Shown here piece after piece: positions 1-13,055 of a stretch of 22,199 nucleotides of DNA. Source of the DNA: a virus; IMG/VR virus record IMGVR_UViG_3300025652_000628, positions 1 through 22,199 of that record; one strand, given 5' to 3'. The position numbers and the translations under genes are program-made. Position 1 is the stretch's first letter. Each line of letters starts with the position of its first letter. Below the pieces are notes generated by a model. It was not told the origin of the DNA and ran no database searches. It worked only from the letters and a program-made list of their open reading frames with translations.

Positions 1-12
1 TGTTAAAGTAAC

Positions 13-42
13 TTGCTTTATCAAAATTACATAGAGTAGAAT
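13..42 (+). promoter_or_regulatory. Possible sigma70-like promoter for the left gene cluster
   Basis: TTGCTT at 13-18 and TAGAAT at 37-42 are separated by 18 bases. The -10 box matches consensus at five of six positions, but the -35 box matches only its first three bases. It lies about 30 bases before the first gene of the recombination and replication cluster. In AT-rich DNA such matches arise easily by chance, so this is weak. Confidence 0.25.
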
Positions 43-73
43 AACATAATCCACACAGTAATAGGTAAACAAC

Positions 74-256: not shown

Positions 257-257
257 T

Positions 258-680
258 TTGGTCAATGCACGAAACAAAGGTCGCAGAGGCGAGAGAGAAG
301 TTATTGACGAAATTAAAGACCTCTTAGGTATTCAATTAGAAGTTAACTACTCACAAACTTTTGGCGGTGGCCACGACTTACTAGGTTTAGATGGTTTTGC
401 TATCGAAGTTAAAAGAAGAAAAGTCATAATGCCAGGAGACTTAAAAAACTTCTGGGAACAAACAACCACACAAGCAAGGAAGGTAAGACTCTTACCATGC
501 TTATGGTTTAGAGCTGATAGATCAGACTGGCGTGTAATGATTGCTAATACATACGCACTTAAAAATAATTTATTTGAAATGGAAGATTTCAATGTTGCAA
601 TGAATATTTCTACAGAACTATTTGCATCATTAATAAGAGAGGAGTACGGACTTGTCACACGCGATATTATCACCCAGTAG
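258..680 (+). CDS. PD-(D/E)XK nuclease, Holliday-junction-resolvase-like
   Basis: This 140-residue protein has a restriction-endonuclease-type core: GRRGEREV near residues 8-15 (first acidic residue), GGGHDLLG with Asp40, and IEVKRRK with Glu50 and Lys52. This E...D...ExK spacing and length fit archaeal Hjc-type and phage resolvases, which cleave branched DNA during recombination or before packaging. A VRR-NUC-like nuclease is the alternative. Translation most likely begins at the TTG at 258, since no ATG precedes the motif in this frame. It sits two bases after the HTH gene, and its 3' end overlaps the start of the next nuclease gene by 29 bases. Nuclease fold is well supported; branched-DNA specificity is inferred from context with recombination genes. 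Confidence 0.7.
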   Translation: MVNARNKGRRGEREVIDEIKDLLGIQLEVNYSQTFGGGHDLLGLDGFAIEVKRRKVIMPGDLKNFWEQTTTQARKVRLLPCLWFRADRSDWRVMIANTYALKNNLFEMEDFNVAMNISTELFASLIREEYGLVTRDIITQ

Positions 681-1398
681 TATTAATAGAATTATTCGTT
701 GCCCTGCTAGTGCAAAGATTAATGCAGTTGCGGAACGTAAAGGTAGCATGGCGGCAGCCAGAGGTACTTCTACTCACGAAATGGTAGAAGCCTTACTTAA
801 AAATAGATTAGATGGCATTTCTTTAGCTGACTATTATCTTGGTAGAACTGTAGATGTAGACGGTTTTAGTTTTGATATCACGCAAGATGATATTGATATG
901 GCTGAAATCTATGTTGATTACATTAACAGAAGAACTGAAGAACTTAACGGAAAATTACTTGTAGAAGAAAAAGTAAATGCTCCAGATATAAACGACAACC
1001 TCTGGGGAACTGCTGATGCAGTTATTCTTGGCGAAGGTAACAGAATGGTCGTTGGCGATTTAAAGTCTGGTGCATGGGCAGTAGATGTCGTGATGAACGA
1101 ACAGCTTATGTGTTACTCACTTGGTTGCCTATCAAGATGGGGTAACGAAGATACAGTCATAGAAATGACAATCATACAACCAAACAAAAGAGCCTTTCAT
1201 AAAGACGGGCAAATAAGAACTTGGGATATTCAAGCGGTCGATCTTGTCGACTGGGGTTTGAATATTTTGAAACCAGCTTGTGATGAAGCAATGGGCGAAG
1301 AGCCTAGCTTTAGTGCTGGAAATTGGTGCAAATTCTGTTCACATAAAGAAGTTTGCGAAACCTATAAATCCATGGAGGATAATGAAAATGGTAAATGA
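652..1398 (+). CDS. DUF2800-type RecB/Cas4-family nuclease with Fe-S cysteines
   Basis: This 248-residue protein resembles the phage DUF2800 family of RecB/AddB-like exonucleases. Visible motifs are SSINRIIRCPAS (residues 9-20, with Cys17), His42 in the STHEMVEAL helix, Asp122 in GTADAV, Asp136 and Lys138 in VGDLKSG, and NEQLMCYSLG (149-158, the Q...Y motif). Three cysteines close the protein: Cys226, Cys229 and Cys235 in WCKFCSHKEVC. One N-terminal plus three C-terminal cysteines is the arrangement of the AddB/Cas4 iron-sulfur staple. The start is a TTG at 652, inside the previous gene, and gives the expected N-terminus. Together with the downstream Sak4-like ATPase and DUF669 protein it forms a typical phage recombination set. 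Likely role: processing DNA ends to single strands. Family confident, direction of cutting unknown. Confidence 0.85.
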   Translation: MSHAILSPSSINRIIRCPASAKINAVAERKGSMAAARGTSTHEMVEALLKNRLDGISLADYYLGRTVDVDGFSFDITQDDIDMAEIYVDYINRRTEELNGKLLVEEKVNAPDINDNLWGTADAVILGEGNRMVVGDLKSGAWAVDVVMNEQLMCYSLGCLSRWGNEDTVIEMTIIQPNKRAFHKDGQIRTWDIQAVDLVDWGLNILKPACDEAMGEEPSFSAGNWCKFCSHKEVCETYKSMEDNENGK

Positions 1399-1687
1399 AA
1401 AAAAGAAAGAGCAACCTCTTTTAAGTTTCCAAGATAAAGACGGAAACACAAGAGAGATATTTGATAGAGACTTAACTGATGCAACTGCGCCCTTGGTAGA
1501 AGAAATCAGCAGAGACTTGGGTGCGGAAAATCAGCTAATGGAAGCATATCAGTTAGCAACTAAAACTGTACATCACATGGAGTCGGTAAGAAAGAATGTA
1601 GCTAACACTTTAGAGAAGTTAGAGAAAGAACTACCGCCTTACAAAAAGCCTGTAACTATAGAAGGTGTTACTAAGGAGATTAACTAA
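1388..1687 (+). CDS. Unknown small helical protein in the recombination cluster
   Basis: This 99-residue charged protein is not one I recognise. The ATG at 1388 is preferred because GGAGG (1374-1378) lies 9 bases upstream; an in-frame ATG at 1382 would leave only 3 bases. The N-terminal part contains LLSFQDKDGNTREIF, which looks like a short beta hairpin. The middle (VEEISRDLGAENQLMEAYQLA) and the segment around MESVRKNVANTLEKLEKEL look helical and possibly coiled-coil. It overlaps the end of the nuclease gene by 11 bases and its TAA shares one base with the ATG of the Sak4-like ATPase gene, so translation is probably coupled. Its position between nuclease and ATPase suggests an accessory DNA-processing role, but that is context only. 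Confidence 0.8.
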   Translation: MVNEKKKEQPLLSFQDKDGNTREIFDRDLTDATAPLVEEISRDLGAENQLMEAYQLATKTVHHMESVRKNVANTLEKLEKELPPYKKPVTIEGVTKEIN

Positions 1688-2469
1688 TGTCTTTAGCAGC
1701 AATACAAAAGAAAGCAAAAGCGAAACCAAGTATTGTAATTATCTACGGCCCTTCTGGGTTAGGTAAGACAACACTGGCAGTAGGAAGTAAGAACCCTGTT
1801 GTTGTACAAACTGAAGAAGGTCTAGGAATCTTAACTAACAATAGAGACATTCCACATTTTCCTTTAGCAAAAGACTACGATACTTTTTATAGTTATCTAA
1901 AGTCCTTGGTTGATGCAGACGAACTTGAATACAACACTTTGGTTGTTGATAGTTTAGATTGGTTAGAGCCACTCATTCATGCAAAGACTTGTGAGACACA
2001 TAAACAACCATCAATAGAATCTTTTGGTTATGGTCGTGGTTACAACGAGGCTCTGAAGTATTGGAGAGAGGTTCTTGATTTAGTTAATAGATTAAGAAAC
2101 GAAAAGAAAATGCGTATTGTTATGATTGCTCATAACCAGATAAAAGCGTTTCACGATCCATCTACAGAAGCATACGATAGGCATGAACTGAAACTGCATA
2201 AAGCCGCAAGTGCCTTGGTGCTAGAAGCAAGTGATATGTGCTTGTTCTTAAACTACAAAAAAGGAACTGTAAAAGTTCAAGGTAGTAAAGGACTAACAAG
2301 TAAGACTGTTCAATCTGGAAGGATATTAGTAACTACTGAATCCCCAGCTTGTGTAGCCAAAAATAGATATGGATTACCAGAACAAATTTCAGTCGTAGAA
2401 GAAGGCGATGACTTTATTGTTAGAGCTGAAAATACTTGGTCTGAAATTGGTAAATTGATAGCGAAGTAA
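1687..2469 (+). CDS. Sak4-like RecA-fold ATPase (phage nucleotide-binding protein, AAA_24 type)
   Basis: This 260-residue P-loop ATPase begins with a short basic leader, followed at residues 21-29 by Walker A, GPSGLGKTT. Walker B is TLVVDSLDW at 84-92, with Asp88. A later strand, IVMIAHNQIKAF, fits the sensor region. Length and layout fit the Sak4 family of single-strand annealing recombinases, which are trimmed RecA relatives that anneal complementary strands with help from a phage single-strand binding protein. The candidate partner, a DUF669 protein, is two genes downstream, and a RecB-like nuclease is upstream. Start and stop are both TAATG overlaps with neighbours, so the genes are probably translated together. 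The ATPase call is firm; Sak4 rather than another AAA_24 protein is likely from context. Confidence 0.85.
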   Translation: MSLAAIQKKAKAKPSIVIIYGPSGLGKTTLAVGSKNPVVVQTEEGLGILTNNRDIPHFPLAKDYDTFYSYLKSLVDADELEYNTLVVDSLDWLEPLIHAKTCETHKQPSIESFGYGRGYNEALKYWREVLDLVNRLRNEKKMRIVMIAHNQIKAFHDPSTEAYDRHELKLHKAASALVLEASDMCLFLNYKKGTVKVQGSKGLTSKTVQSGRILVTTESPACVAKNRYGLPEQISVVEEGDDFIVRAENTWSEIGKLIAK

Positions 2470-2663
2470 TGGCTACAGAACACGAAAAATTAATATTCTT
2501 TATGCGTAAAGCTAAAATATTAGTTGAAGACTGTATGGATAAAAACGGAGATGATGATCTTATTCTCCCGTTAGGTGCGAACAGAGTTCTATCAGAAATA
2601 GCTGAAGCACTAGAAGAAGAAATAGATAGAGCAGATGATTACGAGGAATATGATCCTGGGTAG
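2469..2663 (+). CDS. Small acidic protein of unknown function
   Basis: This 64-residue protein starts at an ATG overlapping the TAA of the Sak4-like ATPase gene by one base, so the two are probably coupled. It is strongly acidic, most clearly in EALEEEIDRADDYEEYDPG at the C-terminus, and appears mostly helical. No enzymatic motif, membrane segment or cysteine pair is visible. Acidic mini-proteins next to phage recombinases sometimes act as adaptors or DNA mimics, but nothing in the sequence proves that here. The coding call rests on the tight junction and on strand continuity. Confidence 0.7.
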   Translation: MATEHEKLIFFMRKAKILVEDCMDKNGDDDLILPLGANRVLSEIAEALEEEIDRADDYEEYDPG

Positions 2664-2701
2664 TCAATTATTAATTGTTAAATTTTTACGGAGGTAACAA
2701 C

Positions 2702-3199
2702 ATGGATTTAACAGAATTTGGTTTGGATAAAATAGAAGCTGGAGAAAGCTCTGGCGGTGGAGATAGGGTAAAGCCTGGAAGATACAACTTTGAATACGCT
2801 GGATCAGAAATGATTGAGGGTAGGAATGGTTGGAAGGCTTTAAAGATTCACTTCGAAGTTGAAGGCGAGATTATAAAAGTTAGTCATGCTTTCACTATGG
2901 CTCATAATAATGACAAGCCTGTTGAGATAGGCAGAGAGTCATTAATGAAAATGCTCAATGCAATGGGAGTAGCATCAATGAAAAACACTGATGAACTTCT
3001 GGGCAAAAAAGTAGAAGGCGAACTAGTCGTTGGCGAGAAGGGTTATTTAGAAATAAAAGATGACTTTGGTAATGGTTGGAAAGCCTATGGCTCTACATCT
3101 ACTACAGAAAATGCTGACCCTAAAGACGTATTACCAAAAGAAGATAAAGAGGAAATGTTCCCTAGCGATGTCGAAGACGAAGACGACTTACCTTTTTAG
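2702..3199 (+). CDS. DUF669-type single-strand DNA-binding candidate with SSB-like acidic tail
   Basis: This 165-residue protein is read from the ATG at 2702, which has a strong GGAGG (2690-2694) 7 bases upstream; an in-frame TTG at 2675 is less likely. The fold region contains KPGRYNFEYAGSEMIEGRNG and WKALKIHFEVEGE, resembling the beta-rich DUF669 family found beside phage Sak-type recombinases. The C-terminus is acidic and ends DVEDEDDLPF, very close to the terminal D-D-x-P-F motif that bacterial SSB uses to recruit partner proteins. A role as the phage single-strand binding protein, helping the Sak4-like ATPase and the primase-helicase, is therefore likely. The last 32 bases overlap the next gene in another frame. 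Family call fairly good, function inferred. Confidence 0.75.
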   Translation: MDLTEFGLDKIEAGESSGGGDRVKPGRYNFEYAGSEMIEGRNGWKALKIHFEVEGEIIKVSHAFTMAHNNDKPVEIGRESLMKMLNAMGVASMKNTDELLGKKVEGELVVGEKGYLEIKDDFGNGWKAYGSTSTTENADPKDVLPKEDKEEMFPSDVEDEDDLPF

Positions 3200-3545
3200 T
3201 AATGATGATCTTAAGTATCGGAGGCCGAGTCTATGTTCATACTGTCATGGACTTAGCTCTCCGTTACTTCATATCAGCAACGGCAAGATTAAAGGTGCTT
3301 GTTGCTATGAACATCTTAAACTTATTGGAGAAGGTAAAAAAATGGAGCATATTAAAAATTTCGCACAGATTAACGAGGAGCTGTTATCTGTTGCACTCAC
3401 GGAAAGTAAATCAAAATACTTAGAAGTTTCCAAAAAGAATAAATCGTTTGTCCTGCATGAATGGACTAAAGAAGACAGGATTAGTTTTATAAGAAGGCTT
3501 GTGTCAAGTTATCTCAATAACTCCAAGGCACAGGCTGATGACTGA
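3168..3545 (+). CDS. Small zinc-binding protein upstream of the primase-helicase
   Basis: This 125-residue protein has a clear zinc-knuckle or ribbon-like motif: Cys23 and Cys26 in LCSYCHG, then Cys45/Cys46 and His49 in GACCYEHL. The rest is charged and helical, with EWTKEDRISFIRRLVSSYL near the C-terminus. No start codon exists in this frame between the upstream stop and the first cysteine, so the ATG at 3168, inside the preceding gene, is the best start. An in-frame methionine after the cysteines would lose the motif. The stop overlaps the ATG of the primase-helicase gene by 8 bases. Phage primases often carry a zinc ribbon at their N-terminus; here the primase lacks one, so this protein may supply it separately. 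That link is speculation. Confidence 0.65.
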   Translation: MSKTKTTYLFSNDDLKYRRPSLCSYCHGLSSPLLHISNGKIKGACCYEHLKLIGEGKKMEHIKNFAQINEELLSVALTESKSKYLEVSKKNKSFVLHEWTKEDRISFIRRLVSSYLNNSKAQADD

Positions 3546-5394
3546 CTTAACTAAATTTTATGGAGACAAGGGTATTGTTCTCGACCAGAACTATGCCTTT
3601 AGTAATACAAGTAAATCAAATGCTGATTTAATTAATGAGATGCGTTCTCATGGTTTGTTAGTTGATTTCTTAGATACAACAGGAAACCTAGTAAGAGTTC
3701 CTGTAAGTGCTGGTGTAAATCACAGGCCAGATAAAGGTGGAGAACGTAGCGGGTACTATGTTTATAACCAGTTAGATCAAAACTTTGTATGTGTTTATGG
3801 TAACTGGCGTACTAATTTAGAGAACAAGTTTACTTCTTATAATCCTAATGAGATGTCTGCGGAGCAAAAAAGGATATTACAATCCAAGCTCGAAGAGGCA
3901 CAAAAGCGGAGAGAAGAGGCTAAGAAAATACAGCACCAACAGGTTGCCGTATATGTCAAAGAAAAGTTTGCTAGTGCGAATGAAGTTATAGAGCATAAGT
4001 ATCTCACGGATAAAGGTATTAAAAATTATGGTTTAAAAACGATTAATGGAAACCTATTAATCGGGGTGCATCATATCATAAGAAATAATGATAATGGGTT
4101 ATTAGTTTCAGAAATAAGGTCTTTGCAATACATCATGCCAGACGGCAGTAAAAAGTTTGCAGGAGGCGGAGAAGTTAAGGGTAATGTATTCTTAATTGGT
4201 TGTAAGGCAGATGAACTACCTAGTTTAGAAACGATTATTTTATGTGAAGGATATGCCACAGGAAGCTCTATATACGAAGCTACGGGTCTACCTGTCGCGG
4301 TTGTATTCTCTGCAAATTTCTGTTTAACAGCGTGTAACAGGTTGCGTTCTATAACGGGTGCAAAGTTTATAATTGCACTTGATAATGATACGTCTGGAAT
4401 AGGCGAGAAATGCGCGAATGAAGTTGTTAGCAGTATTAGTAATGCAGTTTCCAGATTGCCTTCTATTATTGGAGACTTCAACGACCTGTATTTAGAGAAG
4501 GGTTTAGATCAGGTTAAGTTAGAGTTAGTAGAGTCGAAGTTTAATATCAGACAATATGCAATTCGTAACTTAGTTGAAAGTCCAAAACCAATAGAGTGGT
4601 TAGTTGATAGTTTCATTCCTTTTGGCAAACCTGGAATCATTGCTGCAGTTGGTGGCGTTGGTAAATCATTATCAATGATTCAGTTGGCTCTGGGCATTGC
4701 GACTGGTGGTAACTGGTGGGGTAAAACCATACAACAAAAAGGGTCAACTGTAATATTTGCGGCTGAAGATGATTTGTCTGAAGTACATAGAAGGATTGAT
4801 GCACTTGACCCACTGGGACTTAGGTTTCAATCCGAGTATGACGTTTATGTATTTCCGATTCCAGAACAAAAAGAACCAATGATTTTATTGAGAGAAGAGG
4901 GAGTAACAGCACAAGCAACAGAGTTGGTAGAAGAATTAAAAGGTATTCCAAATTTAAAACTGGTTGTATTCGACCCATTACAGGCATTTACGACTGGTAA
5001 TATCAGTTCAAGTAATGAAGTAGGCCAGTTATGGGGTTCTTATTGTGCAAACATATCAGCCAGATTAGGTGTTACGACTCTTACAGTTCATCACTTGGCA
5101 AAATCGGCTCTTACTAATGATTCAGATGATGCACTTTCGCATAGAGCTGAAATTCGTGGTGCATCAAGTATCACTGATTCAGTTCGTTTTGCGATAGCTA
5201 TGTGGTTAGCTGATAACGATACGTGCGAAAAGATATGCATGGAGCAAGGCATAAAGGTAGACAGAATGGCAGTCGTTAAAGCCAGTCTGGTTAAAAGTAA
5301 CTCTGGAAATGTAGACTATGAAACCAAGACTTTGGTTAGGCGTGGTGCAGTTCTGGAAATATTAGAAAATAAAACGTCCTTCGATTGGGACTAG
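3538..5394 (+). CDS. Fused TOPRIM primase and RecA-type (RepA-like) helicase
   Basis: This 618-residue replication protein starts at an ATG overlapping the previous stop by 8 bases; a TTG at 3499 is a less likely start. Residues 1-100 resemble the N-terminal region of TraC-type primases (GNLVRVPVSAG, SGYYVYNQLD, YGNWRTN). A charged helical linker spans about 105-135. The TOPRIM core has ILCEGYATG (234-242, Glu237) and IIALDNDTSG (278-287, Asp282 and Asp284). The helicase half has Walker A, GGVGKS (372-377), a likely catalytic Glu in IFAAEDD (406-412), Walker B, LVVFDPLQAF (475-484), and TVHHLAKS (516-523). It would prime and unwind at the phage fork. No classic N-terminal zinc ribbon is present. 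No DNA polymerase gene is visible in the window. Confidence 0.88.
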   Translation: MTDLTKFYGDKGIVLDQNYAFSNTSKSNADLINEMRSHGLLVDFLDTTGNLVRVPVSAGVNHRPDKGGERSGYYVYNQLDQNFVCVYGNWRTNLENKFTSYNPNEMSAEQKRILQSKLEEAQKRREEAKKIQHQQVAVYVKEKFASANEVIEHKYLTDKGIKNYGLKTINGNLLIGVHHIIRNNDNGLLVSEIRSLQYIMPDGSKKFAGGGEVKGNVFLIGCKADELPSLETIILCEGYATGSSIYEATGLPVAVVFSANFCLTACNRLRSITGAKFIIALDNDTSGIGEKCANEVVSSISNAVSRLPSIIGDFNDLYLEKGLDQVKLELVESKFNIRQYAIRNLVESPKPIEWLVDSFIPFGKPGIIAAVGGVGKSLSMIQLALGIATGGNWWGKTIQQKGSTVIFAAEDDLSEVHRRIDALDPLGLRFQSEYDVYVFPIPEQKEPMILLREEGVTAQATELVEELKGIPNLKLVVFDPLQAFTTGNISSSNEVGQLWGSYCANISARLGVTTLTVHHLAKSALTNDSDDALSHRAEIRGASSITDSVRFAIAMWLADNDTCEKICMEQGIKVDRMAVVKASLVKSNSGNVDYETKTLVRRGAVLEILENKTSFDWD

Positions 5395-5406
5395 GGAGAA
5401 AATTAA

Positions 5407-5571
5407 ATGAACGGGAAGGGAAGCGACCAGAGACCAAGACAAGTAGATAAGAAAATATTTGAAGATAATTGGGATAGGATATTTGGTAAGAAAAAGACCA
5501 AAAAAGAGACTGAAAAGAAGGATAAAAAGAAAAAGCAATCGGATACACGGGTAGCCGATTATCGTATATAG
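5407..5571 (+). CDS. Small basic conserved phage protein (MNGKGS type)
   Basis: This 54-residue ORF begins MNGKGSDQRPRQVDKKIF and continues with EDNWDRIFGKK. I recognise it as a widespread but uncharacterised phage mini-protein, usually of the form 'GKGs..RP..v....f..NwdkIFgkk'. The second half is an extremely lysine-rich tail. A GGGAG ribosome-binding site lies 7 bases before the ATG, and the gene follows the primase-helicase gene by 12 bases. Its last codons run into the first of three 23-bp repeats, so coding and repeat overlap. Function is unknown; the charge suggests nucleic-acid contact. The coding call is confident because the sequence pattern is familiar. Confidence 0.8.
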   Translation: MNGKGSDQRPRQVDKKIFEDNWDRIFGKKKTKKETEKKDKKKKQSDTRVADYRI

Positions 5572-5610
5572 GGGTAGCCGATTATCGGCTATACGGGTAG
5601 CCATATATCC
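5549..5610 (+). repeat. Three 23-bp direct repeats, possible origin or operator
   Basis: GGGTAGCCGATTATCG at 5549, the same bases at 5572 and a shorter GGGTAGCC at 5595 lie exactly 23 bases apart. The third copy diverges after GGGTAGCC. In copy 2 the core forms a 17-base palindrome, TAGCCGAT-T-ATCGGCTA (5575-5591); in copy 1 only the inner CGAT-T-ATCG is conserved. A 23-bp spacing puts the sites about two helical turns apart, as expected for iteron-like or operator sites bound cooperatively. They sit between the primase-helicase module and a winged-helix protein gene, in one of the few non-coding spaces. The first copy overlaps the end of the 54-aa gene. Confidence 0.75.
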
Positions 5611-5627
5611 AAGACTAGACTAATAGA

Positions 5628-5654
5628 GAGAGTGAGCCTTACGGCTCATCTCTC
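5628..5654 (+). promoter_or_regulatory. Stable hairpin upstream of the winged-helix gene
   Basis: GAGAGTGAGCC (5628-5638) pairs with GGCTCA and CTCTC (5643-5654) around a TTAC loop, with one bulged T at 5649, giving 11 base pairs. There is no run of T after it on either strand, so it does not look like a standard intrinsic terminator. It lies between the 23-bp repeats and the start of the winged-helix gene and may mark an RNA processing site, an attenuator or part of an origin. Confidence 0.5.
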
Positions 5655-5706
5655 AGGGAAAAAGAATCAGTAGGAATTGTATTAATTAAGGTGGAATAAA
5701 AGAAGC

Positions 5707-6144
5707 ATGAAAGAGCAGAAATGGTGGTTAGTTATCGAGGCGATTGAGAGTCCAGAGGAAAGTGGATTGATACCTTACGGTTTAGCTATGAAGTATAAGA
5801 ACTATTCGAAGCTGAAGAAGGTAGTCTGGAAGTGGTATAAGAAACACCTGGGAAGGACGGATATAAAGGGTAGGGAAAAGCTAGTCTTGTATGCGCTCTG
5901 CGAGAGGTATTCGGCTCAAGATTATTCTAGCCATGATGCGGTTAGCTACTTGGCGTTAATGATTGGCATGAACAGGCATACGGTTAGTAAGGGTATTCAG
6001 AATCTTATGGATCAGAATATTATTTGGTGTGCTATTGATAAAGAGAAGAAGGTGTTGCGAAGCCTGAAAGCAGGAGTGCAACATAAACATTTCTTGTTTG
6101 TTGGTTTGGGCGTGATGCTAGAAAGGGAAAGCCAAGACGAGTAG
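5707..6144 (+). CDS. Winged-helix (HTH_36-like) DNA-binding protein, possible replication or regulatory factor
   Basis: This 145-residue protein has an N-terminus rich in tryptophan and lysine (EQKWWLVIEAIE, KKVVWKWYKKHLG). A winged-helix region follows at about residues 57-115: KLVLYALCERYS, then SYLALMIGMNRHTVSKGIQN as the helix-turn-helix, and DQNIIW with its following strand as the wing. This pattern resembles HTH_36 domains found in plasmid and phage replication initiators and in regulators. The gene directly follows an array of 23-bp repeats and a hairpin, so it could bind them. The ribosome-binding site is weak: AAGGTGG lies about 12 bases before the ATG. It is the last + strand gene before the convergent cassette. 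DNA binding is well supported; initiator versus repressor is open. Confidence 0.7.
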   Translation: MKEQKWWLVIEAIESPEESGLIPYGLAMKYKNYSKLKKVVWKWYKKHLGRTDIKGREKLVLYALCERYSAQDYSSHDAVSYLALMIGMNRHTVSKGIQNLMDQNIIWCAIDKEKKVLRSLKAGVQHKHFLFVGLGVMLERESQDE

Positions 6145-6194
6145 TTATATACTTTAGGGGGTTTTTGATTACCCGTCCTGACTTCCGTGATTGG

Positions 6195-6362
6195 TTAATT
6201 ATACCTATCTTTTTGATAAGTTTCCTTAATTTGGTTTTTAGTTACCCGTCTTACTTGTTTGGTTTCCTCGTCAAGAAAAGCAACTCTTTTAAGTTTGTTT
6301 TCTTTGTAGTCTCCTCGGACGTATCCAAAGATTGTTGTTCCGTGTATTTGTACTCTAATCAT
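6195..6362 (-). CDS. Small basic unknown protein, last gene of the reverse cassette
   Basis: This 55-residue ORF starts MIRVQIHGTTIFGYVRGDYK and ends with a basic segment containing KQVRRVTKNQIKETYQ. An AAGGG ribosome-binding site lies about 5 bases before the ATG. The start overlaps the stop of the upstream gene by 8 bases (ATGATTAG), the same arrangement as elsewhere in this cassette, which supports it as real. The N-terminal half looks beta-rich, like a small SH3-type barrel, but I do not recognise the family. A longer + strand frame over the same bases has no good start or composition and was discarded. Confidence 0.7.
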   Translation of the reverse strand: MIRVQIHGTTIFGYVRGDYKENKLKRVAFLDEETKQVRRVTKNQIKETYQKDRYN

Positions 6363-6633
6363 AATAACCCTTTTTAATTTGAAAAAATTTGTATATGAAA
6401 TCCATTAGAGGATAGTTCTTTTCACATTCAGCCCATGCGGTTATCTCATCGGCGAAGTGTAAAAGCGTTTCTTTGCTTTCGGATTCATAGCGTTTGATTC
6501 TAGCCTTAAAGTTCTTGTTGTCGTCTGCTTCCAGATGTTGCTTTGCTAATTCCTCCGCTTGTTCATATATGTATTTATTGGTTTCCAGAATGAACGCGGT
6601 TGCCTGTTCTAATTGGATTGAATCAATCTTCAT
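6355..6633 (-). CDS. Unknown 92-aa helical protein of the reverse cassette
   Basis: The preferred start is the ATG at 6633, preceded by GGCGGTG as ribosome-binding site and overlapping the TGA of a 29-aa membrane peptide by four bases. A TTG 33 bases upstream would give 103 residues but has no ribosome-binding site. The protein begins MKIDSIQLEQATAFILETNK and is highly charged and apparently all-helical, with ADEITAWAECEKNYPLMDFI near the end. No catalytic or metal motif is seen. Function unknown. Confidence 0.75.
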   Translation of the reverse strand: MKIDSIQLEQATAFILETNKYIYEQAEELAKQHLEADDNKNFKARIKRYESESKETLLHFADEITAWAECEKNYPLMDFIYKFFQIKKGYYD

Positions 6634-6719
6634 ATTGCACCGCCATTCATTAGGTAAAGTATCCAAACACAGGTTAATAATCCTATGATTGATATTCTCA
6701 TCATTAGATCGTGTTTCAT
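6630..6719 (-). CDS. 29-aa single-span membrane peptide
   Basis: This very small ORF encodes MKHDLMMRISIIGLLTCVWI followed by LYLMNGGAI. A charged first few residues are followed by about 17 hydrophobic residues, enough for one transmembrane helix. Both ends are coupled: the ATG overlaps the upstream TGA (ATGA at 6719) and its own TGA overlaps the next ATG (ATGA at 6633). Without this ORF there would be an 82-base gap in an otherwise seamless operon, which supports it as a gene. Such peptides in phages may inhibit or remodel membrane proteins, but no family is recognised. Confidence 0.65.
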   Translation of the reverse strand: MKHDLMMRISIIGLLTCVWILYLMNGGAI

Positions 6720-6961
6720 TCTTGCACCTCCTCTTTTACGTGCTTAATTAATTCATGGTAATAGAAGTTATCGTTTTCTATTTCTTGTATTATTGCTCTG
6801 CCTACTTCTTCCCGCGTTGGTGGTTGATGACCAACAAAAGAATTGAACTCGATTGGCTGTAATTGTATTACTACCTTTTCTGGTTCTTCTTGTGGCATGG
6901 TTTTAATATCACGTTCTATTTCTATTAGTTCTCTTATTCTATCTGCATCTTTATTAGACAT
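6716..6961 (-). CDS. Unknown 81-aa acidic protein of the reverse cassette
   Basis: This protein starts at an ATG at 6961 with a consensus AGGAGG ribosome-binding site 7 bases upstream. It begins MSNKDADRIRELIEIERDI, contains a proline-rich central part (QPIEFNSFVGHQPPTREE) and ends in an acidic helix (HELIKHVKEEVQE). The start overlaps the upstream stop by 8 bases and the stop overlaps the downstream 29-aa membrane peptide by 4 bases. No recognised domain. The predicted helix-linker-helix layout is compatible with a small protein-binding factor. Confidence 0.75.
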   Translation of the reverse strand: MSNKDADRIRELIEIERDIKTMPQEEPEKVVIQLQPIEFNSFVGHQPPTREEVGRAIIQEIENDNFYYHELIKHVKEEVQE

Positions 6962-7202
6962 TTTTTTGCCTCCTAGCTTTCGCCTTCTTGTTGGTGTTAT
7001 CTCTCACCATTTGTATATCGGGTTGTATGTCTTCTAGTATTAGCTTTCTAACTTCGCTAACTGTAAGACCGTTTAATTGCTTGGTTACTATTTGAATATC
7101 ACTTAGTTTAGGTATCCACGTTTGGTGATACTGTTTGTCCTGGCAGTCTAAGTTATAGCACCAATCAATGATTAGGCCGTTGATGTTTATTGAAAATATC
7201 AT
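6954..7202 (-). CDS. Unknown 82-aa protein of the reverse cassette
   Basis: An AAGGA ribosome-binding site lies about 10 bases before the ATG at 7202, which overlaps the stop of a 28-aa membrane peptide by 4 bases. The protein begins MIFSININGLIIDWCYN, a beta-like segment, and then has SDIQIVTKQLNGLTVSEVRK and a basic tail (NTNKKAKARRQKNV). The basic tail and central helices could contact nucleic acid, but there is no clear HTH. It is translationally linked to both neighbours. Function unknown. Confidence 0.75.
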   Translation of the reverse strand: MIFSININGLIIDWCYNLDCQDKQYHQTWIPKLSDIQIVTKQLNGLTVSEVRKLILEDIQPDIQMVRDNTNKKAKARRQKNV

Positions 7203-7285
7203 TTTTCTTTGTCCTTAATGATTAGAGCGACACCATAAAGGCAAAAAGCCATTAATATTAGTATTAGTATTAGTTGCCAGTCCAT
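7199..7285 (-). CDS. 28-aa single-span membrane peptide
   Basis: This ORF encodes MDWQLILILILMAFCLYGVA and LIIKDKEK, which is almost entirely one hydrophobic helix with a charged C-terminal tail. A CAGGAG ribosome-binding site lies about 9 bases before the ATG. Its ATG shares a base with the stop of the upstream gene (TAATG at 7285) and its TGA overlaps the downstream ATG (ATGA at 7202). It is the second tiny membrane peptide in the same cassette. The topology is probably N-out or hairpin-free with lysines in the cytoplasm; the role is unknown. Confidence 0.7.
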   Translation of the reverse strand: MDWQLILILILMAFCLYGVALIIKDKEK

Positions 7286-7500
7286 TAGTCTTGCTCCTGT
7301 AATTTATAAAAGCCTAAAGACTTTGTGCAGTCCGTTTGTCCGTTCTCATCAACAGGGTATAAAGATAAAAATTTTTCCCCTGTTTGGTCATCAGTCCAAA
7401 GGTTTATATCTATTGTTTTATTTGGGTGTATGCCTTCAACGTCTTTGTATTCGCTTTCAGCGTTAAAAGTTCCCCATGAATCATTTGGATATATACTCAT
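7285..7500 (-). CDS. Unknown 71-aa acidic protein of the reverse cassette
   Basis: The ATG at 7500 has an AAGGGGGA ribosome-binding site a few bases upstream and overlaps the upstream TAA by one base. The protein starts MSIYPNDSWGTFNAESEYKD and contains INLWTDDQTGEKFLSLYPVD. It looks beta-rich and acidic, like a small single-domain barrel. No cysteine motif, membrane segment or catalytic triad is evident. It ends one base into the next gene. I do not recognise a family; an acidic, small, soluble protein in a phage accessory cassette is compatible with an inhibitor, but that is only inference. Confidence 0.75.
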   Translation of the reverse strand: MSIYPNDSWGTFNAESEYKDVEGIHPNKTIDINLWTDDQTGEKFLSLYPVDENGQTDCTKSLGFYKLQEQD

Positions 7501-7676
7501 TATTTCCCCCTTGTTGGTTTACCATTTGGAAAGGTTAAAGCCTCGCTAAACGCTTTCCAATGCTTAGGTGTCATTATTTGCTCTACCTTGTGAATAGGCG
7601 TGTTATCTTTTAGGCCGTACTTCTTGCGAAGCTGTCCTATGATGCTTTTGTATCTCGATCGAGTTTTGTTGCTCAT
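7500..7676 (-). CDS. Unknown 58-aa basic protein of the reverse cassette
   Basis: This ORF starts MSNKTRSRYKSIIGQLRKKY and ends EALTFPNGKPTRGK. It is basic and helical, with TPIHKVEQIMTPKHWKAF in the middle. The GGCGGTG upstream of the ATG at 7676 serves as ribosome-binding site; the ATG overlaps the upstream TGA (ATGA) and its TAA shares a base with the next ATG (TAATG). These junctions and the composition make it a convincing gene despite its size. It might bind nucleic acid given its charge; no named domain is recognised. Confidence 0.75.
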   Translation of the reverse strand: MSNKTRSRYKSIIGQLRKKYGLKDNTPIHKVEQIMTPKHWKAFSEALTFPNGKPTRGK

Positions 7677-7942
7677 TGGTTCACCGCCTTTGTTGTGTTG
7701 TCGTATTCTTGTTCTGTTAGATAAGAATATGATTGTAAAAATTCCTTCTTGGTTAATATTCTAAAGTCGTGCATCTTTTCTATATCGTTTAAGAAGTTAG
7801 CTTTTTTGGTTATTGCTTCTATTAAATCATCTTGTAATTTATACGTCTTTTGAAGCTCCTCTGTTAGCATATATATGAGTTCTCTCGCTGTTGAAGTGTC
7901 GCTGTAGTCGTATTCTTTTATTTTGTTTAAATCTATTTTCAT
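7673..7942 (-). CDS. Unknown 89-aa helical protein of the reverse cassette
   Basis: The start ATG at 7942 directly follows the TAA of the first cassette gene and has AGAGGTGG about 6 bases upstream. The protein is mostly charged helix: MKIDLNKIKEYDYSDTSTAR, then a segment containing MLTEELQKTYKLQDDLIEAI that looks coiled-coil, and a C-terminal helix rich in Tyr and Glu. The opening MKID is shared with the 92-aa protein later in the cassette, but I see no wider similarity. No catalytic motif. It ends in an ATGA overlap with the 58-aa gene. Confidence 0.75.
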   Translation of the reverse strand: MKIDLNKIKEYDYSDTSTARELIYMLTEELQKTYKLQDDLIEAITKKANFLNDIEKMHDFRILTKKEFLQSYSYLTEQEYDNTTKAVNQ

Positions 7943-8329
7943 TTATGCCACCTCTTTAATTTCTTCTTCTAATAATAAAATCATGTAGGCCATGAAGTTC
8001 CAGTAGTTCTCACATATCCTGTCTTCTTGTACGCTTGATAAGTTATATTCAACTGAACCCATATTTTTTGCTAGTTCTATAATATCGCAATATGAATAAG
8101 GAATATGAATAGCTATACCGCTTAACCATTCCGCAAGAACATTTTGTTTGGTGTCGTTTCTAGTTCTTCCAACTTTCCAACCATATTCTGAATTAAATCT
8201 ATCAAATAGATATTTAATCTTTTCTTCTCTTGATAAGTTTTTATCAATCAAATCATCTTCATTATCTAAACAAGCAAGAATATAGTTTTTATAATTCTCT
8301 TGATATTTTGTATAATGTAGTTTTGTCAT
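7943..8329 (-). CDS. First and largest gene of the reverse cassette, unknown 128-aa protein
   Basis: The ATG at 8329 has an ideal AGGAGGT ribosome-binding site and lies about 35 bases after a sigma70-like -10 box. The sequence begins MTKLHYTKYQENYKNYILAC and contains FDRFNSEYGWKVGR, NVLAEWLSGIAIHIPYSY and ENYWNFMAYMILLLEEE. From memory, the SEYGW, EWLSG and IIELAK pattern recurs in uncharacterised phage early proteins, so it is probably a conserved family rather than an orphan, but I cannot name it securely. It appears helical and soluble, with no metal or nucleotide motif. Confidence 0.8.
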   Translation of the reverse strand: MTKLHYTKYQENYKNYILACLDNEDDLIDKNLSREEKIKYLFDRFNSEYGWKVGRTRNDTKQNVLAEWLSGIAIHIPYSYCDIIELAKNMGSVEYNLSSVQEDRICENYWNFMAYMILLLEEEIKEVA

Positions 8330-8364
8330 GTTTACCTCCTAAAGTATTTACGTTTGACTCCCCT

Positions 8365-8392
8365 ATGATACCTAAATGTACTTATATATCAA
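8365..8392 (-). promoter_or_regulatory. Probable sigma70 promoter for the reverse cassette
   Basis: On the minus strand TTGATA (8392-8387) is followed after 16 bases by TATCAT (8370-8365). Each box matches the consensus at five of six positions. Transcription would begin near 8358, giving a leader of roughly 30 bases before the ATG at 8329, with AGGAGGT inside it. It lies in the divergent spacer between the cassette and the terminase small subunit gene. Confidence 0.55.
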
Positions 8393-8410
8393 GTAGTTAG
8401 ATAAAAAAAC

Positions 8411-8440
8411 TTAGTGTTTTTATGAGGAATGCTGTAATAT
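8411..8440 (+). promoter_or_regulatory. Weak candidate promoter for the packaging genes
   Basis: In the divergent spacer, TTAGTG (8411-8416) and TAATAT (8435-8440) are 18 bases apart on the + strand, about 33 bases before the terminase small subunit ATG. Both boxes are imperfect. Some promoter is expected here because the flanking genes diverge, but a phage-specific or host alternative sequence could be used instead. Confidence 0.25.
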
Positions 8441-8472
8441 AAGGGTTTACGGAGCATAAAAAAATATCAGTT

Positions 8473-8976
8473 ATGGAGCAAAAAACACCAAAAAAAGACA
8501 ATAAATCTCTTAAAAAGGGCGGAAGGAAGAAGATTGTTTTAGACTTAGAGCAAGTGGAGAACTTAGCTTCTCGTGGTTTAGGTACTACACAAATTGCCCG
8601 TGCTATGGGCGTTTCATGGAATACTATTGATAGGAATAGAAAGCGTTCTGTAGATTTTGAAGACGCTATAAAAAGGGGGAAGGCAAAGGGACTAGCACAG
8701 GTTACAAACTCTTTGTTCACTTCTGCCACTGATGGCAATGTTACCGCACAGATATTCTACTTAAAGAACCAAGATGCGAAGACATGGAAAGATCGTGTTG
8801 AAAATGTCCACGCTACTATTAATTTGAATGATGTTTTATCTGGTGCAAAAGACAGACTTGGCGACTCTATGGCGACTATTAATAAACCTAAAGTTATAAA
8901 CGCTGTTAAATCAACGTCTACAGCTTCGGAACAACTGGTAAATAACCAAGACGATATAAAAAAGAATGATAATTAG
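8473..8976 (+). CDS. terS: Terminase small subunit
   Basis: This 167-residue protein has the usual features of a phage small terminase. A basic N-terminus (KSLKKGGRKK) precedes a helix-turn-helix at about residues 26-57 (ENLASRGLGTTQIARAMG, SWNTIDRNRK). The central oligomerisation helices contain NSLFTSATDGNVTAQIFYLK (79-98) and then DAKTWKDR, a pattern highly typical of small terminases. The C-terminal 45 residues are low in complexity and probably flexible. It would bind the packaging site in phage DNA and regulate the large subunit. The start ATG lies 50 bases after the putative promoter; no strong ribosome-binding site is seen. Separated from the large subunit by about 240 bases. Confidence 0.85.
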   Translation: MEQKTPKKDNKSLKKGGRKKIVLDLEQVENLASRGLGTTQIARAMGVSWNTIDRNRKRSVDFEDAIKRGKAKGLAQVTNSLFTSATDGNVTAQIFYLKNQDAKTWKDRVENVHATINLNDVLSGAKDRLGDSMATINKPKVINAVKSTSTASEQLVNNQDDIKKNDN

Positions 8977-8980
8977 GGCG

Positions 8981-9013
8981 GATAGTTCGCTATCTTGTAA
9001 GGGTTGCCCACAA
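8981..9013 (+). promoter_or_regulatory. Two adjacent hairpins and a C-run between the terminase genes
   Basis: GATAG-TTCG-CTATC (8981-8994) is directly followed by TTGT-AA-GGG-TTG-CCC-ACAA (8995-9013), so two small hairpins abut. A run of eight C follows at 9049-9056, then an A/T-rich stretch with homopolymer T at about 9100-9119. The 150-base space is unusual in this compact genome. It could hold a packaging site, a structured leader for the large terminase, or a transcription pause. None of these is shown by sequence alone. Confidence 0.4.
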
Positions 9014-9127
9014 TCTGAAAAATCACATGCTCCGATTTAAAACGATTGCCCCCCCCTTACATTTTTCGCACGGGGTATATTACGTGTAACTGTTGCGCTA
9101 ATTTTTTTTAATTTTTTTGAGTAGAAT

Positions 9128-9217
9128 ATGAAAGAGGTAATAACTGGAATGATAGAAATACTAACCATAGCTGGACTTGGTAATTTTTTATTATTTATAA
9201 TTTTGGTAAATATATGA
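9128..9217 (+). CDS. 29-aa single-span membrane peptide before the large terminase
   Basis: The ORF encodes MKEVITGMIEILTIAGLGNF and LLFIILVNI. A short charged start is followed by one hydrophobic helix. Its TGA overlaps the ATG of the large terminase gene (ATGA at 9214-9217), which otherwise has no ribosome-binding site, so translation coupling is plausible. The peptide's own ribosome-binding site is weak (GAGTAG). It could be a real membrane peptide or a leader that mainly delivers ribosomes to the terminase gene. Confidence 0.45.
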   Translation: MKEVITGMIEILTIAGLGNFLLFIILVNI

Positions 9218-10746
9218 AATACGGAGCTGAAGCTGAACAACAACTAATGACCGAAGTTTGGTCGCCTCAAGTTGCGGACGATCCATATAACTTTGTTATG
9301 TTTATCTTCCCCTGGGGACAGAAGGACACCCCCCTCGAAGATTTTACAGGCCCAAGAGAGTGGCAAAAAAATGTTTTAAAAAAATTATCAATAAGCATAC
9401 AAAGAAATAAAGGTGAAATTAATCCAGAGATGTTTAGACTTGCTGTAGCATCTGGACGTGGAATAGGAAAGTCTGCTTTAGTTTCATGGTTAATCCTATG
9501 GATGCTATCAACCAGACTTGGATCAACCACCATTGTAACTGCTAACACCGAACAACAGCTACGTTCAAGAACATGGGCGGAGTTAGGTAAGTGGCTAACA
9601 CTTTCTATAAACAGCCATTGGTTTACTAAAACTGCTACAACCATAAAACCAGATGGTTGGTTTGAAGAAGCACTCAAAAGAGACTTAAAAATAGATACAG
9701 GTTACTACTACGCCCAGGCGCAACTATGGAGCGAAGAGAACCCAGACGCTTTCGCTGGTATTCACTCCTCCTACGGAGTTTGCTTAATCATGGACGAGGC
9801 ATCAGGTATACCCGCACCCATCTACTCCGTCTCCGAAGGTTTCTTTACAGAGCCTACAGAAAATCGTTTCTGGTTTACTTTTTCTAACCCTAGAAGAAAC
9901 ACAGGGCCTTTCTACGAGAGTTTTACATCCAAGCGTAAGTTCTGGAACTTAGAACAAATAGACTCACGCACAGTAGAAGGTACTGACCAAAAACTATTCC
10001 AGACCATGCTCGAACAATACGGTGAAGATTCTACCGTAGCTAGAGTAGAAGTTAGAGGCGAGTTCCCTAACGCTGATGATGATTCAGTCATACCAATGGA
10101 ACTGGCAAGAAATGCTGTCGACAGGGACGTAGCACTAACAACCAAAGCACCTATTGTTTGGGGATTAGACGTTGCGAGGTTTGGCGGAGACAACTCTGCG
10201 CTATGTGTCAGACAAGGTAATACTGTTCTTGAAATTAAGACTTTTAAATCGATGGATTTAATGCAATTATGCGGTGCAGTTAAAAACTTATATGACGACA
10301 GTACAGTTGTAGAACAACCACAAGAAATACTTATAGACGTAATTGGTCTTGGTAGTGGTGTTGTAGATAGACTAGCTGAACAAAATTTACCAGTAAGAGG
10401 AGTCAATGTTTCTGAATCACCATCTACTAGGAAAAACTATTTAAACTTACGAGCTGAATTATGGTTTGCAATAAAAGATTGGTTGGCGCTGCGTAATTGC
10501 CGTCTTCCTAATGATGATGAGCTTGTATCGGAATTGGCAGCGCCTAGTTATAAATATACATCAACTGGAAAAATAAAAATAGAGTCTAAGGACGAAATGA
10601 AAAAAAGAGGTATTAAGTCTCCAGATAAGGCTGACGCACTTGCATTAACCATGGCAAGTTCCGCTGCAAGTTTTAGTGGTGGCGAGAACTTTTTAGGGTA
10701 TAATTTCAAGAAACCCTTGACATCAAGAATAATCAGAGTGGGATAA
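9214..10746 (+). CDS. terL: Terminase large subunit (ATPase and nuclease)
   Basis: This 510-residue protein is a complete packaging motor. The ATPase half has Walker A SGRGIGKS (80-87) and Walker B LIMDEAS (191-197, Asp194 and Glu195), followed by TFSNPRRN (222-229), the usual coupling region. The RNase H-like nuclease half shows WGLDVARFGGD (316-326, Asp319), LIDVIGLG (373-380, Asp375) and SPDKADAL (469-476, Asp471/Asp474), the expected acidic triad. The N-terminal region contains FVMFIFPWGQKDTPL and GPREWQ, common in this family. It pumps DNA into the capsid through the portal and cuts it. The ATG overlaps a tiny upstream ORF; an in-frame ATG at 9247 is an alternative. All key residues are present. 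Confidence 0.95.
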   Translation: MKYGAEAEQQLMTEVWSPQVADDPYNFVMFIFPWGQKDTPLEDFTGPREWQKNVLKKLSISIQRNKGEINPEMFRLAVASGRGIGKSALVSWLILWMLSTRLGSTTIVTANTEQQLRSRTWAELGKWLTLSINSHWFTKTATTIKPDGWFEEALKRDLKIDTGYYYAQAQLWSEENPDAFAGIHSSYGVCLIMDEASGIPAPIYSVSEGFFTEPTENRFWFTFSNPRRNTGPFYESFTSKRKFWNLEQIDSRTVEGTDQKLFQTMLEQYGEDSTVARVEVRGEFPNADDDSVIPMELARNAVDRDVALTTKAPIVWGLDVARFGGDNSALCVRQGNTVLEIKTFKSMDLMQLCGAVKNLYDDSTVVEQPQEILIDVIGLGSGVVDRLAEQNLPVRGVNVSESPSTRKNYLNLRAELWFAIKDWLALRNCRLPNDDELVSELAAPSYKYTSTGKIKIESKDEMKKRGIKSPDKADALALTMASSAASFSGGENFLGYNFKKPLTSRIIRVG

Positions 10747-10750
10747 ATTT

Positions 10751-12898
10751 ATGGAATACGACAAAGATCAAGAAATCGAAGAGTTACAAGTAGAAGAGTC
10801 TTTTAATGAGGAAGAACTACAAGGCGTACTTAAGTCCGAAATGGATGACGCTAAAGACTTTATCGACCAGATAGACCAGGACAGAGCTGATGCTACTGAC
10901 TACTATCTTGGAAACGCTCCAACATCACAAAGCTCTATGCAATCAGAGTTTGTATCAACAGACGTTAGAGACAGCGTGTTATTCATGCTGCCTTCCATCA
11001 TGCGTACATTTTTTGGTACTACTAAGATAGTAGAGTTTATACCTCATGGCCCAGAAGACATACAACTAGCCAAACAACAAACAGATTACATTAACTATGT
11101 CATCCAGCAAAAAAACCCAGGCTTCAAAGTTTTATATGATGCGTTTAAAGATGCGCTTATTAGAAAAACTGGTTTTGTAAAAGCCTACTGGGATGACAGC
11201 ATTACCGCATCAACTCACGAATATACAGACATTTCTCCAGAAGCCTATCAAGCTCTAACACTTGACCCTAACGTAGAAGTCATTGAAGAAAAAATTGAAA
11301 TGCAAAGCATGACATTTATGAATCCTGAAAATGGCGAAGAGATGACACAAGAAACTCCAGTTAGTTACGATGTCAAAATTAGAAGAATTAAGCCTAAAGA
11401 CCAAGTGGTAATCGAAGCAGTACCAACAGAAGAAGTATTAATTTCAAGACACGCTAGAGACTTAAATACTTCTCCATACGTTGCACACAGAATGGTTAAG
11501 ACTGTAAGTGACTTAGTTGCTATGGGTTATGACAAAGAACAAATGGAAGAGTTCGCTGGTTCTGGTAGTGCGGTTGATGAAGATTCATACGACCTAGAAC
11601 AAGCAAGAAACCCATACGCAGATTTTACTGGTGTTGATAGAGCAGACAACAATAGTAAAAATGTTCTTTATATAGAGCATTATGTTTTTTATGATTTAGA
11701 TGGTGATGGTATAGATGAAAGGATTAGAGTATGCACTGTAGGGAATGGATTAAATATTGTTAATTCAACACCCTGGGATGATTTACCTATTACACTCTTC
11801 TGTCCCGATCCAGAGCCACATACCTCCATTGGCTCATGCCCCGCGGACTACTTGATGCCTATTCAAGCTGCTAAATCTCAGATAATGAGAGATACACTTG
11901 ATAGTCTAGGCCACGCCATCTTCCCGAGAATGGGTATAGTAGAAGGACAAGTCAACATTGATGACGTTCTTAATACTGATATAGGACAACCAATAAGAAT
12001 GAGAGCGCCAGGAATGGTTCAGCCTTTCTCTGTGCCTTTTGTTGGTAAAGAAGCCTTCCCTGTATTGTCTTACTTAGACGAAGCAAAAGAAAACCGCACA
12101 GGAGTTTCCAAAGCTTCCGCAGGACTAAACGCAGAAGCATTACAATCTACAACTTCCGCAGCTGTATCGGCTACTATGTCTGGCGCACAAGGAAGAGTAG
12201 AACTTATCTGTCGTCACTTTGCTGACGGAATGAAAGATTTATTTAAACTTGTAAACTCACTTGTTATCAAACACCAAGAAGGTCAAGACATGATGAGACT
12301 TAACAACGAGTTTATTCCTATTGATCCTAGGTATTGGGATGCTGACAAAGACATGGTAATTAATGTTGGTATTTCTAAAAACTCTGACGAAGAAAAGTTC
12401 CAAGTCTTAACAACTATGGCGCAAAAGCAAGAACAAATATTACAAACATTAGGCCCTAACAATCCTTTGGTTAATTTACAGCAGTATGCAAACACTCTAA
12501 CTAAAATGATTGAGATGGCTGGATTTAAAGATGCAACAACATTTATAAATACAACCGTACCTCCTATGCCTCCGCAACCACCAGAAGCATCTAAACCTTC
12601 TCCAGAAGAAATGTTGGCACAAGCCGAAGCAATGAAGGCACAGAACTTAGCACAAAAAGCTATCATTGATGCAGAGACAGATAGAATGAAAATCATTATG
12701 GATGACGACAGAAACCGTGATGAACATGAAGCCGACTTAAAACTTAAGATTGCAGAACTACAAGCTAAGTATGGCGCACAAATAAATGTAGCAGAAATAA
12801 ATGCAATCATGGAAAGAGATAGAGAAGCGATTAGACAGGTAGCAAAAAACCAATCGCAGGGAATGTTTACTAATGGCAATAACCCACCAATCGGATAA
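10751..12898 (+). CDS. P22-like portal protein
   Basis: At 715 residues this is the size of P22-type portals (P22 gp1 is about 725). The acidic N-terminus is followed by DQDRADATDYYLGNAP and FVSTDVRDSVLFMLPSIMRT, the typical opening of this family. The wing and stem region includes HYVFYDLDGDGIDERIR and SIGSCPADYLMPIQAAKSQI. The C-terminal 110 residues (roughly 605-700) are alanine- and charge-rich helix, for example EMLAQAEAMKAQNLAQKA, like the long barrel of P22. Twelve copies would form the capsid vertex through which DNA enters. The gene starts 4 bases after the large terminase stop. A P22-like portal points to a short-tailed phage. The 3' end overlaps the next gene by 26 bases. Confidence 0.92.
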   Translation: MEYDKDQEIEELQVEESFNEEELQGVLKSEMDDAKDFIDQIDQDRADATDYYLGNAPTSQSSMQSEFVSTDVRDSVLFMLPSIMRTFFGTTKIVEFIPHGPEDIQLAKQQTDYINYVIQQKNPGFKVLYDAFKDALIRKTGFVKAYWDDSITASTHEYTDISPEAYQALTLDPNVEVIEEKIEMQSMTFMNPENGEEMTQETPVSYDVKIRRIKPKDQVVIEAVPTEEVLISRHARDLNTSPYVAHRMVKTVSDLVAMGYDKEQMEEFAGSGSAVDEDSYDLEQARNPYADFTGVDRADNNSKNVLYIEHYVFYDLDGDGIDERIRVCTVGNGLNIVNSTPWDDLPITLFCPDPEPHTSIGSCPADYLMPIQAAKSQIMRDTLDSLGHAIFPRMGIVEGQVNIDDVLNTDIGQPIRMRAPGMVQPFSVPFVGKEAFPVLSYLDEAKENRTGVSKASAGLNAEALQSTTSAAVSATMSGAQGRVELICRHFADGMKDLFKLVNSLVIKHQEGQDMMRLNNEFIPIDPRYWDADKDMVINVGISKNSDEEKFQVLTTMAQKQEQILQTLGPNNPLVNLQQYANTLTKMIEMAGFKDATTFINTTVPPMPPQPPEASKPSPEEMLAQAEAMKAQNLAQKAIIDAETDRMKIIMDDDRNRDEHEADLKLKIAELQAKYGAQINVAEINAIMERDREAIRQVAKNQSQGMFTNGNNPPIG

Positions 12899-13055
12899 GA
12901 TTTACGACTTAGAATTTCTTGACGGAGATTTTATCTATGTTGGATCGGACATAAAAGCTAAGAGCCTGGAAGAAGCAAAAAGAGTGGCAAGGATATTTTT
13001 ACAGATACCACACGACTCTGAATTAATATCTTCTAAGGTAACTTTAATACACTAA
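12873..13055 (+). CDS. Unknown 60-aa protein overlapping the portal gene
   Basis: The ATG at 12873 lies inside the end of the portal gene, and the stop shares a base with the next ATG (TAATG). The protein begins MAITHQSDKIYDLEFLDGDF and continues with AKSLEEAKRVARIFLQI, so it looks like a small beta-alpha fold. It has no recognised domain. The sequence reads as a soluble protein, in contrast to the antisense frames in this area. A role in head assembly is suggested only by position. Confidence 0.65.
   Translation: MAITHQSDKIYDLEFLDGDFIYVGSDIKAKSLEEAKRVARIFLQIPHDSELISSKVTLIH

Follow-up and report, generated by a model that had tools for sequence, protein, structure and literature searches.

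A terminase-adjacent, reverse-strand block of small genes with an exchangeable first slot in marine podovirus-type phages

The DNA analyzed here (positions 1 to 22,199 of IMG/VR record IMGVR_UViG_3300025652_000628, a 22.2-kb virus record; hereafter, the window) carries a block of ten small open reading frames (ORFs), all on the minus strand, which fill positions 6195–8329 and are named g1 to g10 in order of transcription (Table 1). The reading we consider fairly probable is that the block is an early operon for counter-defence and host takeover, read from a host promoter and varied by gene-for-gene replacement at translation starts. One host-type sigma70 promoter would drive this accessory operon, against the reading direction of the other phage genes, and transcription would probably begin as soon as the DNA has entered. 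Of the small genes, g3 and g5–g10 would form a conserved backbone, and the slots between backbone genes, above all the promoter-proximal one, would be refilled by exchange. The first slot would serve mainly for blockers of host defence: some phages have an Ocr-like inhibitor of restriction there, and the window possibly has g1 in this role.

All ten ORFs begin with ATG. By their coordinates, g1 and g2 abut directly, 4-nt overlaps (ATGA) join g2/g3, g5/g6, g7/g8 and g8/g9, 1-nt overlaps (TAATG) join g3/g4 and g4/g5, and overlaps of 8 nt are found at g6/g7 and g9/g10. Shine-Dalgarno (SD) sequences are good at most starts and weak at g9 and g10, and the AT skew is inverted across the block. Codon comparison with relatives could be made for eight of the ten ORFs (g2 and g4 gave no informative pairs), and the median ratios of nonsynonymous to synonymous substitution (dN/dS) are given in Table 1; the low values show that at least eight of the ORFs are protein-coding on the minus strand and under purifying selection. 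An earlier note on this DNA, made from the letters alone, had described ten tight minus-strand ORFs with good ribosome-binding sites at most starts, and this description is borne out by the nine abutting or overlapping junctions and the selection on eight ORFs, the weak sites of g9 and g10 excepted.

Table 1. Coordinates of the block genes, their flanking genes and the regulatory features of the window.
Feature	Coordinates	Strand	Length (aa)	Median dN/dS	Description
HTH_36-like gene	5707–6144	+			Left flank, convergent with block; Pfam HTH_36, E = 8e-4, below cut-off
g10	6195–6362	-	55	0.15	Basic; last backbone gene
g9	6355–6633	-	92	0.04	Most constrained backbone gene
g8	6630–6719	-	29	0.23	Predicted membrane peptide (hydropathy); backbone
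g7	6716–6961	-	81	0.10	Acidic; backbone
g6	6954–7202	-	82	0.12	Backbone
g5	7199–7285	-	28	0.25	Backbone (family of 31); predicted membrane peptide with one helix
g4	7285–7500	-	71		Variable slot
g3	7500–7676	-	58	0.17	Basic; backbone gene with the widest distribution (family of 37)
g2	7673–7942	-	89		Variable slot
g1	7943–8329	-	128	0.21	Occupant of promoter-proximal slot
Junction GAGGTGGCATAA	7943–7954	-			End of g1 (encodes -EVA*), doubles as SD of g2
Leader TACTTTAGGAGGTAAAC	8330–8346	-			Carries SD of first gene; one side of putative swap site
Sigma70-like promoter	8365–8392	-			-35 TTGATA (8392–8387), 16-nt spacer, -10 TATCAT (8370–8365)
Small terminase	8473–8976	+			Right flank, divergent from block; phrog_309, E = 4e-29

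To place the block among its relatives, 80 loci were fetched by their large terminase (TerL, 85–100% identity). A minus-strand block lies beside the small terminase (TerS) in all 44 relatives whose sequence reaches 1.5 kb or more upstream of that gene. Although TerL is 85–99% identical among these phages, their 572 block proteins were sorted into 205 families, of which 116 have a single member; these counts are approximate because the home-made gene caller used for the relatives truncates some copies of g3 (24 vs 58 aa). The genes that recur are g3, g5, g6, g7, g8, g9 and g10, and the other positions vary. A shared but variable cassette at the same locus had been named beforehand as a check on the earlier proposal, and it was found.

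Compared with one relative (L021), the window is 98.4% identical in nucleotide sequence over positions 1–6723 and 94.8% over 8322–13055, with g1, g2 and g4 replaced, and the homology boundary at 8322, seven bases inside the start of g1, is identical for L021, L023, L025 and L034. When all pairs of 25 loci were compared, 79% of 2761 homology boundaries lay no more than 15 nt from a start codon, against 14% at random positions, the counts not being independent in such an all-pairs comparison. The junction that follows g1 has its own signature: a C-terminal EVA is found in 15 distinct families and GAGGTGGC precedes the start in 16, and unrelated first genes end in -EVA because their ends contain GAGGTGGC, which serves as SD for the gene that follows. 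The break points at starts, together with the shared leader (described below) and the GAGGTGGC junctions, indicate that exchange proceeds gene by gene at translation-start junctions. Homologous recombination at short shared start sequences may be the mechanism, with the leader TACTTTAGGAGGTAA on one side and GAGGTGGC-stop-ATG on the other.

The sigma70 promoter that the earlier note had placed at 8365–8392 is unremarkable in a single-sequence scan, which was not beyond chance (9 sites against 12.4 expected, fewer than in shuffles), but gains support from its conserved position: across 43 distinct relatives, 93% score at least 9 of 12 at the same place, compared with 20% of shuffles. In these relatives the -35 element is mostly TTGATA, the -10 is kept at a spacing of 16–18, and the sequence between them varies. 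Inverted repeats also occur here, namely AATACGT..ACGTATT around the expected transcription start, just after the -10, in one promoter type (L068, L073 and L081), and TACTT..AAGTA around the -35 in most; they are possible operators.

Between the promoter and the first gene sits a constant leader, TACTTTAGGAGGTAA, present as one copy on the minus strand of the window and in 0–2 copies per block in relatives. Its 10-mers directly precede up to 29 distinct protein families. In a matched subset, a leader 10-mer stood before 18 families, compared with at most five for any plus-strand 10-mer of the same phages, and the leader is not among the most shared words upstream of plus-strand genes.

Directly behind this leader, 26 families were counted in 49 loci, and one of them has a recognized function. 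In L030, whose TerL is 98% identical, the first slot holds a 101-aa protein that matches phrog_2568, 'ocr-like anti-restriction' (E = 3.6e-7), and about twenty more marine contigs encode such a protein, most of them in the same position relative to TerS and TerL. Further members of the family match phrog_2568 with E values from 5e-6 to 7e-16, the family profile has T7 Ocr (1s7z) as its top match in the PDB (E = 0.0017), and the copy in L207 matches the annotated Ocr of T7-like phages by tblastn. Ocr inhibits type I restriction-modification and BREX (PMC7261183). The Ocr-like protein and g1 were never found together in one contig. This occupant provides the strongest functional evidence, although it comes from the slot and not from the window's own genes.

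In the window the slot is taken by g1. The earlier note had called the block genes unknown, and for g1 this applies to function and not to sequence, since residues 7–124 of its 128 match phrog_11100 (E = 1.1e-29) and 173 relatives were found among the scanned viral contigs. Pelagibacter phage HTVC010P carries a homologue (49%), and distant ones occur in phapecoctaviruses and others. Wherever a contig holds g1 together with a TerL of one type or the other (38 contigs), the two genes are on opposite strands and 1.2–3.4 kb apart, so that g1 heads a divergent block in both of these phage groups, whose terminases are dissimilar. At 10001–10396 of L005, a 52.7-kb contig that otherwise shares almost nothing with the window, lies a g1 of 93% identity, which points to a recent transfer between unrelated phages and would suit an accessory gene that is mobile. 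The structural model of g1 has five helices (mean predicted local distance difference test, pLDDT, 92.7), no significant match in the PDB, and only uncharacterized viral proteins as model neighbours. The best fold match, a HEPN toxin (E = 0.65, probability 0.09), was not accepted, and the PDB profile match to 7bu0 (E = 0.0066) covers 50 residues of an uncharacterized chain. Judged by its position, g1 may itself be a counter-defence protein, which we regard as nearly an even call; otherwise it would be another kind of host-takeover protein.

The takeover or anti-defence role suggested in the earlier note is thus backed in part, by the variable cassette, the conserved host-type promoter and the Ocr-like protein in the first slot; early expression and a counter-defence role of g1 are what we infer. 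Several observations weigh against a counter-defence operon varied by gene replacement. A known function is seen in just one of the many first-slot families, and the model of the Ocr-like protein is weak (pLDDT 71.7) and matched no Ocr fold in the PDB. The g1 protein gave no match to phrog_2568, and its profile comparison with the Ocr-like family reached a probability of 1.9% over 14 columns. Acidity was tried as a sign that slot genes are DNA mimics and was rejected: the isoelectric points of first-slot families are the same as those of other families (p = 0.95), and DNA mimicry is therefore no general mark of the slot. The non-independence of the break-point counts belongs on the same side.

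The main competitor, unlikely in our judgement, is a general host-takeover operon of inhibitors (of RNA polymerase, nucleases, cell division and other targets), with anti-defence as a minor component and g1 binding a non-defence host enzyme. The same promoter and variability would be expected of it, the small predicted membrane peptides g5 and g8 would suit it, and in phAPEC8 a distant homologue of g1 has small genes around it for which promoters of both host and phage type are annotated. However, the sole slot occupant with a recognized function is an anti-restriction protein, and a slot whose content changes rapidly between nearly identical phages would fit the matching of host defences better than a fixed takeover target.

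A lysogeny or immunity module, in which a repressor and its control genes were left in reverse orientation, is a good deal less probable. The distant relative DSL-LC05 has an annotated 'repressor protein C' in a terminase-adjacent minus-strand block, and ctNMl277 an annotated helix-turn-helix (HTH) protein, but no repressor-like HTH was detected in 150 block proteins scanned with Pfam and NCBIfam, no integrase was found among the window proteins searched (a set that does not take in every ORF), and no prophage was seen, the one genome-contig match being a Pelagibacter metagenome-assembled genome (MAG). That these are accessory packaging or replication genes is highly improbable: the block always adjoins the terminase, and in HTVC010P it lies between an Sf6-TerS-like gene and TerL, but it is on the opposite strand, is hypervariable and gave no matches to families of either function. 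The idea that the ORFs are spurious, lying antisense to a plus-strand read-through transcript (which must cross the block if the late genes are read from upstream), can be dismissed, as it is refuted by the dN/dS of 0.04–0.25 in the minus-strand frames and contradicted by the SD sequences, the junctions and the conserved promoter.

A counter-defence and takeover operon of this kind can be set beside several known systems. It resembles the early locus of T7 gene 0.3 (Ocr) in the Autographiviridae in offering a place for a small anti-restriction gene, with an Ocr homologue in the first slot of relatives, but the slot described here has at least 25 further families as occupants, g1 among them, the genes are on the reverse strand, and no phage RNA polymerase was recognized among the window proteins searched. 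Promoter-early stem-loops (PeSL), reportedly described by Arbiol in 2010 and Comeau in 2014 (cited in PMC4503421), mediate the shuffling of small genes in T4-type phages. Both systems have a short, repeated regulatory element that includes a stem-loop and stands between small, probably early genes shuffled from one close relative to another. Here, in contrast, a stem-loop is joined to an SD leader and not to a promoter, it occurs in some loci only and is absent from the window, and the phages that carry it are unrelated, of podovirus type, and have contigs of about 35 kb.

The Start-Associated Sequences (SAS/ESAS) of cluster K mycobacteriophages (PMC3203893) are likewise short SD-containing repeats directly before the starts of different families, some with an upstream inverted repeat. 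The sequence here is unrelated to them, its hairpin is terminator-like, and it is confined to the first slot or slots of the minus-strand block instead of being genome-wide. Anti-defence clusters in mobile elements also gather small counter-defence genes at one locus; those clusters (PMC7648647) adjoin a conserved gene associated with anti-CRISPR (Acr) genes, whereas what defines the present block is its position, its leader and its junctions at start codons.

Another parallel is HTVC010P (KC465898, L018), where the g1 homologue leads a six-gene minus-strand block adjoining TerL. Its TerL and portal are different, and among the terminases, portal, capsid, replication genes and block genes tested, only g1 matches the window. 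The gene before that block (32494–33167) is Sf6-TerS-like (E = 1.3e-5, just below the Pfam cut-off), and the block therefore separates TerS from TerL there, an arrangement that differs from the window. No description was found, in the literature searched, of the arrangement reported here: a probably early accessory locus with start-associated shuffling, adjacent to the terminase of marine podovirus-type phages, and with an Ocr-bearing slot.

Two leaders were found in 14 loci. The extra unit in these, which is missing from the window, comprises a small gene, a terminator-like hairpin and a second leader, and is placed before the usual slot gene. The hairpin has the form AAGCCCGC...GTGGGCTTTTTGGGT or, swapped, ACCCCGC...GTGGGGTTTTT, and this GC-to-CG change is a covariation, with 99.2% of cells paired and a covariation score that none of 500 shuffles reached. 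It has no Rfam match as a known RNA family. A promoter after the hairpin was unsupported (mean score 6.7, compared with 6.8 in shuffles), though 7 of 17 units do have a TATAAT after it. Of the eight families behind the hairpin, six occur directly behind the promoter in other phages, and g1 is found with the extra unit in L004 (95% identical to the window's copy) and without it in the window. The unit likely lowers or times the expression of the genes behind it. In more distant phages, other terminator-like hairpins (for example, AAGCTCC..GGGGCTTTTGGTGG and GCGCCCCG..CGGGGCTTTCGTGG) precede g1 or the Ocr-like gene, at about 750–840 in L006 and upstream of the Ocr-like gene in L199, L204, L205 and L185, and the hairpin-before-slot arrangement is therefore wider than the one sequence type searched for.

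A scan of genome contigs gave a single match, L185, from a MAG labelled Candidatus Pelagibacter (TerL 83%). This contig of a binned Pelagibacter genome carries the packaging and structural module of the phage group and an Ocr-like gene in a minus-strand block. Together, L185 and HTVC010P hint at SAR11 as the host.

Tentatively, abundant marine and probably SAR11-infecting phages may possess a dedicated exchange slot, in which a single constant host-type promoter and leader would serve dozens of mostly undescribed, interchangeable counter-defence proteins, Ocr and g1 among them, which would be swapped at start-codon junctions and could be stacked by means of a dosage-setting terminator-leader unit. 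Lacking any common sequence, counter-defence genes are difficult to detect. If the proposal is correct, new anti-defence genes could simply be read off from the slot, and, since the occupants of this fixed promoter-leader address include an Ocr-like protein, the first gene behind TACTTTAGGAGGTAA beside a terminase would be a homology-free rule for collecting candidates from metagenomes. It would also be a sign of defence pressure of the restriction type on the phages' hosts, perhaps SAR11, and would show, in phages other than the T4-type and cluster K ones, an example of short start-associated sequences that mark exchange points of small genes.

Among the remaining block genes, g2 is missing from most close relatives and has matches in L020, L057, L068, L191 and L196–L198. 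Its C-terminal part (..LTKKEFLQSYSYLTEQEYDNT..) is shared with a 109-aa protein of L068 (7724–8053) that has a different N-terminus, which indicates domain shuffling inside the block. No relatives of g4 were found among the fetched TerL loci. In the g6 family (the window compared with L068 and L090), a basic tail, NKKAKARR, is kept and the N-terminal part is strongly divergent, and one member of the g5 family has a hydropathy of 3.1. Profile searches of the PDB with g9, g10 and g3 were without any match. Almost nothing usable came from a Pfam scan of g1–g10, or from Pfam, NCBIfam and PADLOC scans of 150 block proteins; sub-threshold matches to nSTAND3 (g9), DUF4825 (g1) and PtuB (one relative) were taken as chance.

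The HTH_36-like gene on the left flank is found on the same side of the block in relatives. To the right of the small terminase follow the large terminase, portal and capsid genes, and the TerL of the window is nearest to those of environmental podovirus-type phages (about 50%), with that of epsilon15 at 36%. Further along, positions 15774–16979 encode a repetitive protein of 401 aa in which DLSGFARIEDLPTFNPDELRKDILMSLP is repeated, and at 21315–22199 another repetitive protein, fibre-like and built on NTTGxxNTAVGxxAL repeats, runs off the end of the window.

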